This document shows positions 50,700 through 50,900 of a DNA stretch of 64,000 nucleotides, piece after piece. Origin of the DNA: Ancylothrix sp. D3o (GTDB lineage Bacteria; Cyanobacteriota; Cyanobacteriia; Cyanobacteriales; Oscillatoriaceae); NCBI RefSeq assembly GCF_025370775.1, contig NZ_JAMXEX010000001.1:186001-250000 (forward strand), given 5' to 3'. Each line of letters starts with the position of its first letter. Position 1 is the first letter of the stretch. Position numbers and translations under genes: made by a program. Under the pieces are notes generated by a model. It had not been told where the DNA came from, ran no database searches, and saw nothing but the letters and a program-made list of their open reading frames with translations.

Positions 50700-50900
50700 A
50701 TGGTTCATATTCGCTTTGACGGGCGTTCTTATGATGTGGCAGAAACGCAGCTTGGCGTTAATGCTTCGATGAGTGACACGGCGATTAAAGAACGTCTGGC
50801 GCAACATTTTGATGTTAATCACAATCGCTTTGAGTCTTATGTGGTTGACCGGCGCCCCGGTGGGGATTTAATTATTCGTCCTGAAGCGGTTTATGGCTAA
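50700..50900 (+). CDS. Candidate beta-grasp ubiquitin-like protein
   Basis: 66 residues, SD AGAGGAGGT. Predicted order is a beta hairpin ([12 protein letters not shown]), a helix ([14 protein letters not shown]), then strands ([22 protein letters not shown]), and the last residue is Gly. This is the beta-grasp order, and the style recalls the short Ubl of PRTRC-type systems (protein C). It ends with a single Gly rather than Gly-Gly. An E1-like protein is encoded at 60280-60912. Ubl identity is inference and needs structure prediction; it might be a different small fold. Confidence 0.55.

Follow-up and report, generated by a model that had tools for sequence, protein, structure and literature searches.

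Four described systems come nearest to the locus analysed here, namely the PRTRC (type 6d) operons, type II CBASS, the Ro60-RtcBA operon of Salmonella and the trn operon of Anabaena, and none of them has its full combination of parts. PRTRC operons contain a small ubiquitin-like protein with a conserved C-terminal Gly and a standalone E1-like protein, together with a JAB protein and E2-D (PMC1779556). Our locus shares the first two components, but it has no adjacent JAB and no detectable E2-D, and contains instead a Ro60 protein, Y-like RNAs, a tRNA array and a protein designated p303. Type II CBASS uses the E1-E2 protein Cap2, whose E1 domain is homologous and which likewise represents C-terminal activation in bacteria (PMC10097602). 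Here, however, no CD-NTase, Cap2 fusion or JAB (Cap3) is present, and a separate ubiquitin-like protein accompanies a Ro60 RNP. The Salmonella rsr-yrlBA-rtcBA operon is similar in its Ro60-family protein, its adjacent tRNA-like Y RNAs, its RNA-end repair function (here KptA) and its stress control (PMC7790460). That operon is controlled by RtcR, whereas the present locus has TrcR-type sites, and it differs further in its highly divergent Ro60, in having several Y-frame RNAs, among them mimics of tRNA and rRNA, and in the addition of UBL, p303 and an E1. In the 26-gene trn operon of Anabaena, TrcR represses through TGTAGTAT, which overlaps the -10 box, and antibiotics that block translation induce transcription; the same source names the trn operon, rtcB, rsgA and rimK as TrcR targets, on which translation-targeting antibiotics relieve repression (PMC10272220). 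The resemblance to our locus lies in an array that starts with tRNA-Asp, in TGTAGTAT over the -10 box and in the logic of translation stress; the consulted text of PMC10272220 makes no mention of a UBL/Ro60/p303/ThiF cassette as a member of the TrcR regulon. A literature search of limited coverage yielded no description of TROVE/Ro60 joined with ThiF and a ubiquitin-like protein.

The window, meaning the whole stretch of 64,000 nucleotides that was analysed, contains the following features.

31582-32683, minus strand: array of 11 tRNA genes, the first being tRNA-Asp(GTC), presumed to be co-regulated
32866-32884, minus strand: putative TrcR-type operator pair in tandem, ahead of the tRNA array, TGTAGTAT at 32877 and 32866, TTGACA at 32890-32895
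50326-50355, plus strand: UBL promoter TTGACA-N4-TGTAGTAT-N4-TGTAGTAT with a putative tandem TrcR-type operator pair, -10 box TAGTAT at 50350-50355
50700-50900, plus strand: UBL, ubiquitin-like protein of 66 residues with C-terminal Gly (homologues, AlphaFold, codon variation)
51107-51222, plus strand: Y-RNA-like element 1, outer stem frame with tRNA-like domain at 51131-51195
51310-51450, plus strand: Y-RNA-like element 2, tRNA-like domain with insertion at 51331-51427
51540-52508, plus strand: p387, protein inside the RNA array, ATG start at 51540 backed by homologues, no Pfam family above cut-off
52562-52678, plus strand: Y-RNA-like element 3, tRNA-like domain at 52583-52655
52769-52896, plus strand: Y-RNA-like element 4, tRNA-like domain at 52794-52873, folding z-score -3.5
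52945-53472, plus strand: p217, in the same place in some relatives, no family above cut-off
53488-53554, plus strand: Y-frame element 5, the outer stem frame around a short insert
53621-55057, plus strand: divergent Ro60/TROVE-vWA protein with MIDAS motif DKSGSM (family profile matches)
56554-57102, plus strand: KptA/Tpt1 RNA 2'-phosphotransferase (PF01885, E 8.6e-57; NF002014 above cut-off)
57172-58377, plus strand: AAA ATPase of the KptA cluster (PF00004, E 2.1e-13), in 3 fetched loci
58606-59313, plus strand: p235, protein of the KptA cluster without assigned family, in 2 fetched loci
59344-60255, plus strand: p303, candidate UBL carrier or transferase with the motif S/A-G-I-C282-L (co-occurrence with UBL, conservation of C282)
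60280-60912, plus strand: ThiF, activating enzyme of the E1 type, C166 invariant (PF00899, E 8.3e-27)

The UBL reading frame starts with ATG downstream of AGGAGG, and its encoded end is IIRPEAVYG. The original prediction of a 66-residue product with Gly as its last residue was borne out, as the frame is real and 97 full-length homologues were recovered. UBL is encoded in 50 of 148 related genomes and in 64 loci of the species collection, where residues 1-66 align at 55-82% identity, and a 595-kb phage record holds a homologue at 32% identity. Cyanobacteria, Acidobacteria/Pyrinomonadaceae, Chlorobiota and many large phage contigs make up the range of the family; the laboratory cyanobacterium Kamptonema formosum PCC 10802 is one carrier of the cassette. 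Conservation of the terminal Gly in orthologues had been named as a check, and all 81 aligned sequences, among them those of phages and some with only about 30% identity, have G66. In every cellular member fetched the tail reads RPEAVYG with the Gly terminal. Phage tails read RPQAVFG, RPDAIFG or RADTVFG, and a few phage proteins are extended, ending in FGKS or WGRG or running on into additional downstream sequence that has a C-x2-C pattern. The codons for G66 vary (GGT 44, GGC 7, GGG 7, GGA 7). Because the last codons change synonymously while the residues stay fixed, the tail is conserved at the protein level.

Searches with UBL against Pfam, NCBIfam, PHROGs and PADLOC gave no family match, and its profile gave no credible match among PDB sequences. 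AlphaFold, run with 26 sequences, predicted a beta-beta-alpha-beta-beta arrangement with a pLDDT of 90 (strands 2-6 and 9-13, helix 26-37, strands 47-51 and 57-61), the last residues being less certain. This agrees with the order of beta-hairpin, helix and strand that had been read from the sequence, and the predicted fold is beta-grasp-like, not a different one. Foldseek returned nothing at E 1e-3 (best E 0.3). Among the best 50 VIA-align rows, most are ubiquitin, ISG15, NEDD8, PB1, FERM and TtuB domains with nearly full-length coverage, at modest Z scores of 3.9-5.3 that all lie below 8 and by themselves are no proof of homology. Assignment of UBL as a beta-grasp protein is supported because the neighbour list is uniformly ubiquitin-like and is joined by the length of the protein and the invariant Gly.

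An E1-like protein had been proposed 9.4 kb downstream of UBL on the same strand, within the KptA cluster, and this was confirmed by the PF00899 match and by matches to E1 structures. The ThiF profile hits SUMO E1, UBA1, MccB, TcdA, MoeB and ThiF (best E 6e-16), as well as the E1 proteins of PRTRC operons (hhalign E 7.5e-14). ThiF also matches the E1-E2 model of PADLOC (E 2.2e-14). Its closest subfamily models are ThiS adenylyltransferases. The Rossmann GxGxxG, the acidic D-x-D and the catalytic Asp and Lys are all present; G28, G30, G33, D52, D54 and K75 are conserved, and D115 is invariant in 17 sequences. The usual E1 motif N-x-x-R-Q lacks its Arg and reads N-L-S-T-Q in the window and in most relatives, so that catalysis is not certain. 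C166 is Cys in 47 of 47 sequences, a column to which the profile alignments did not extend. Judged by its sequence, ThiF is a genuine member of the E1 family.

The genes for UBL, Ro60, p303 and ThiF are closely associated. In all 42 loci that hold the four genes, they follow in the order UBL-Ro60-p303-ThiF on one strand, and these loci include Pyrinomonadaceae, Chlorobiota and phage contigs. UBL, the divergent Ro60, p303 and ThiF occur together in 49 of the 50 UBL genomes. For UBL and ThiF, 49 genomes have both, 1 has UBL only, 4 have ThiF only and 94 have neither (Fisher p 3e-33). The cassette genes are scattered in some genomes. One closed genome (G065) keeps all four although megabases separate p303 and ThiF from UBL and Ro60, so the link is not only one of operon inheritance. 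Two minus-strand reading frames (55148-55498 and 55680-55958) intervene between Ro60 and KptA in the window, so UBL and ThiF probably do not form one transcription unit there. Identity of the E1, gene order and co-occurrence support the earlier view that UBL and the E1-like protein are a conjugation or sulfur-relay branch of an RNA-surveillance island; which of the two chemistries applies is a point that we infer.

The original prediction had also stated that the window encodes no JAB peptidase and no E2. The first part stands insofar as no JAB peptidase is adjacent to the cassette and the JAB family was found only on other contigs. The second part has to be qualified by p303, which is strictly associated with UBL and has a near-invariant Cys, and is a candidate only. 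p303 and UBL are found together in 49 of 50 UBL genomes, which equals the figure for ThiF. Near the p303 C terminus lies a GICL motif, and C282 within it is present in 49 of 50 sequences at identities down to 23%. The motif follows four predicted strands and precedes helices, as in E2 enzymes, in a model that is poor (pLDDT 60, with VIA-align rows of scattered folds). No family match was obtained for p303, its profile gave nothing credible among PDB sequences, and there was no E2 match. Identity with Prok-E2_D was considered and receives no support from the sequence, since hhalign of p303 against the PRTRC E2-D gave a probability of 0.4%. The idea of a transferase comes from the conserved Cys, the association with UBL and the absence of another candidate; p303 may thus be the missing transferase of UBL. 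At 59620-59710 in the window, the p303 gene carries three near-identical (L)REQTNNV copies, an in-frame insertion absent from aligned relatives.

Other PRTRC proteins were compared in the same way. Prok-E2_D (PF14460) had no match in the window genome and was found in 7 of 100 relatives. Prok_Ub (PF14454) did not match UBL in the Pfam search, with a model that matched nowhere, controls included. In hhalign, UBL and a cyanobacterial PRTRC C protein aligned over 31 columns at a probability of 15%, which is a hint at most, and comparison of UBL and p303 with the cyanobacterial PRTRC C and B proteins gave no confident match.

The locus had been described as a Y RNA/Ro60 locus, and both halves of this description hold. 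The window Ro60 sequence by itself has no Pfam TROVE match. Its family profile matches human RO60 (9nen, E 3e-12), the TROVE protein 9l5y (E 2.7e-8 over 29-397) and Rsr (E 2.5e-7), with homology that covers both the HEAT-repeat and the vWA part, and the MIDAS residues D301, S303, S305, T363 and D387 are invariant. The interval from UBL to Ro60 holds five elements that share an outer-stem frame, four of them tRNA-like and one short, so that "Y RNA" is a fair name. The layout of the frame is CGCGCCCTAAC...AGCTTACATAC - insert - ...AACTTGCGCG. This pattern gave 51 matches within the UBL-Ro intervals (86 kb), a count that is partly built in because the pattern was written after inspection of some loci; the control is its count of 0 in 1.01 Mb outside, and it was also 0 on the other strand. 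The Rfam model YrlA had no match in the window at the gathering score. Sub-threshold YrlA matches occur in relatives (E 1.6e-4 and 9.5e-4), where elements read as permuted tRNAs in L082, L036, L034 and L031 give them. The protein p387, encoded inside the array, has an internal repeat near its C terminus; about 34 loci have a homologue at this position, and L033 has two copies.

In relatives, the inserts of the frame extend to other RNAs. By our own reading, some are circularly permuted tRNA-like domains (L061:3694-3929, L092 at about 2860-3000 and L082:10420-10560), in which the 3' half comes first and the acceptor stem is loop-closed. For the ribosomal inserts, mimicry of 23S rRNA was assessed by the Rfam LSU model and by motif counts, with GTACGAGAGG and TATAACGGCCCTAAGGTAGCGA taken to be the sarcin-ricin loop (SRL) core and the H69-71 sequence from established knowledge of universal 23S sequences. 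Y-frame RNAs containing the H69-71 sequence TATAACGGCCCTAAGGTAGCGA lie between UBL and Ro60 in L031 (10696-10908), L033 (6360), L034, L037, L038, L010 and L004; the sequence is present in 12 locus entries, a count that includes some genomes fetched twice. Upstream of the p303/KptA unit, a Y-frame RNA of about 205 nt combines the SRL core GTACGAGAGG with a domain of the GTPase-associated centre (GAC). It is found at L082:12544-12741, L056:14587-14786 and L036:15954-16158 and in 14 further loci, and in 8 loci a TGTAGTAT site precedes the SRL core by 57-61 nt. In 1.51 Mb, the plus strand contains 22 copies of the decamer GTACGAGAGG and the minus strand none, compared with a mean of 1.4 and a maximum of 11 for shuffled decamers. 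Four of the 22 copies are found elsewhere than in the SRL element: in L040, once in L055, and in the p303 coding sequence of L114/L115. The GAC domain matches the LSU rRNA model with E 2.3e-13 and its pairing is kept, and a 17-copy alignment of the SRL-GAC element contains compensatory changes both in the outer stem and in the rRNA-like part. Separately, a short match to the tmRNA model (42 bits, gathering score 47) was seen upstream of UBL at L056:9603-9686, and two cassette-bearing viral contigs encode a full tmRNA (L122:18961-19364 and L113:10686-11097).

The upstream regions of UBL and of the tRNA array share one arrangement. The UBL promoter matches at 10 of 12 promoter positions, and its TGTAGTAT pair at 50336 and 50348 overlaps the -10 box. 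Exactly two tandem TGTAGTAT pairs exist in the window, one before UBL and one before the tRNA array, where shuffles lead to an expectation of 0; the combination of TTGACA with a tandem pair is found nowhere else in the 6.57-Mb genome. Of 61 cyanobacterial loci, 45 have a TGTAGTAT site in the 700 nt that precede UBL, whereas the sequence downstream of UBL contains 0.016 sites per 700 nt. The loci of other phyla have no TGTAGTAT site near UBL, and no exact TrcR-type site was found before the KptA/p303/ThiF unit in the window. A TGTAGTAT site also precedes the tRNA array in L035, L036, L048, L058, L068, L076 and L097. In these seven loci and in L040 and L086, UBL is immediately preceded by 18-32 tRNA genes of its own strand, and on the phage contigs L105, L106 and L109 by smaller arrays. 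The 11-gene array of the window is probably the local trn operon, and the sites before it and before UBL are presumed to bind TrcR.

Taken together, the sequence comparisons make it somewhat better than an even prospect that UBL is the E1-activated, ubiquitin-like modifier arm of a translation-stress island built on Ro60 and RNA mimics. In the proposed mechanism, TrcR would release the island under translation stress and spare tRNAs would be made from the array. Ro60 would bind the Y-like RNAs, which would imitate ribotoxin targets, and KptA would trim RNA ends. Adenylation of Gly66 of UBL by ThiF is the step in which we have good confidence, and ThiF would then probably hold UBL as a thioester on Cys166. 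From there, Cys282 of p303 would be the acceptor that passes UBL to a protein target, a relay through p303 being plausible at a little under an even chance. The target would most simply be Ro60 or a protein that the RNA mimics have captured.

In a more specific and more tentative form of this explanation, the island would be a translation-damage system that baits and tags. The Ro60 RNP would display mimics of tRNA (also permuted), of H69-71 and of the SRL and GTPase centre in a common frame, as ribotoxin decoys or sensors; UBL, E1 and p303 would mark what the bait catches, i.e. ribotoxins, factors, ribosomal proteins or Ro60, and the spare tRNAs and KptA would serve repair. We consider this possible though doubtful. 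The Y-frame elements do copy known ribotoxin targets (tRNAs, 23S H69-71, and the SRL plus GAC), and the cassette is present in phages with tRNA arrays, where it is perhaps directed against host ribotoxins. However, the elements of the window are of the tRNA type only, and the SRL-GAC element was not found in the window genome.

The main rival to conjugation is sulfur relay. UBL would then be a sulfur carrier like TtuB or Urm1, and ThiF would generate a thiocarboxylate from which sulfur passes into the tRNAs of the array or the Y-like RNAs. The tight link to tRNA arrays, the ThiS adenylyltransferase models closest to ThiF and the presence of TtuB among the VIA-align neighbours all speak for it. 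The tail of UBL does not: alignment of tails places a single Gly after Tyr, Phe or Trp where the sulfur carriers ThiS, MoaD and TtuB have Gly-Gly. Atg8, Atg12 and UFM1 have only one Gly at the C terminus, preceded by an aromatic or hydrophobic residue. UBL resembles them in its aromatic-Gly end, and the phage FGKS and WGRG ends resemble precursors for processing, a similarity that concerns the tail only; homologues of the E2 and protease were not found. Because of this tail, conjugation is favoured over sulfur relay. Furthermore, no TtuA-like ATPase, rhodanese or cysteine desulfurase is among the family matches of the neighbouring proteins, and a sulfur relay leaves the conserved p303 unexplained. 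On balance we lean towards protein conjugation and regard sulfur transfer as unlikely.

Less likely still is a reaction of the MccB kind, in which ThiF would modify the C terminus of UBL with a small-molecule adduct and no protein conjugate would form, or UBL would be an allosteric partner only. The ThiF profile does match MccB, and UBL is small with an invariant C terminus. On the other hand, UBL is a folded, conserved core and not a short peptide, and association with Ro60 and p303 is atypical of peptide antibiotics. Membership in a PRTRC-type operon (row 6d of Iyer 2006), suggested by a Ubl with C-terminal Gly and a related E1, is practically ruled out by the absent Prok-E2_D, the absent adjacent JAB and the hhalign comparisons described above.

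If the preferred reading of UBL as the modifier arm of the Ro60 island is true, it would join bacterial ubiquitin-like conjugation with Ro60/Y RNA quality control, two fields that were found joined nowhere in the literature searched. The rRNA-mimic RNAs would form a new class of noncoding RNA. With four co-occurring genes, the mutable residues G66, C166 and C282 and a predicted inducing stress, the function of the bacterial Ro60 RNP and the retention of tRNA arrays by phages and cyanobacteria would become directly testable.
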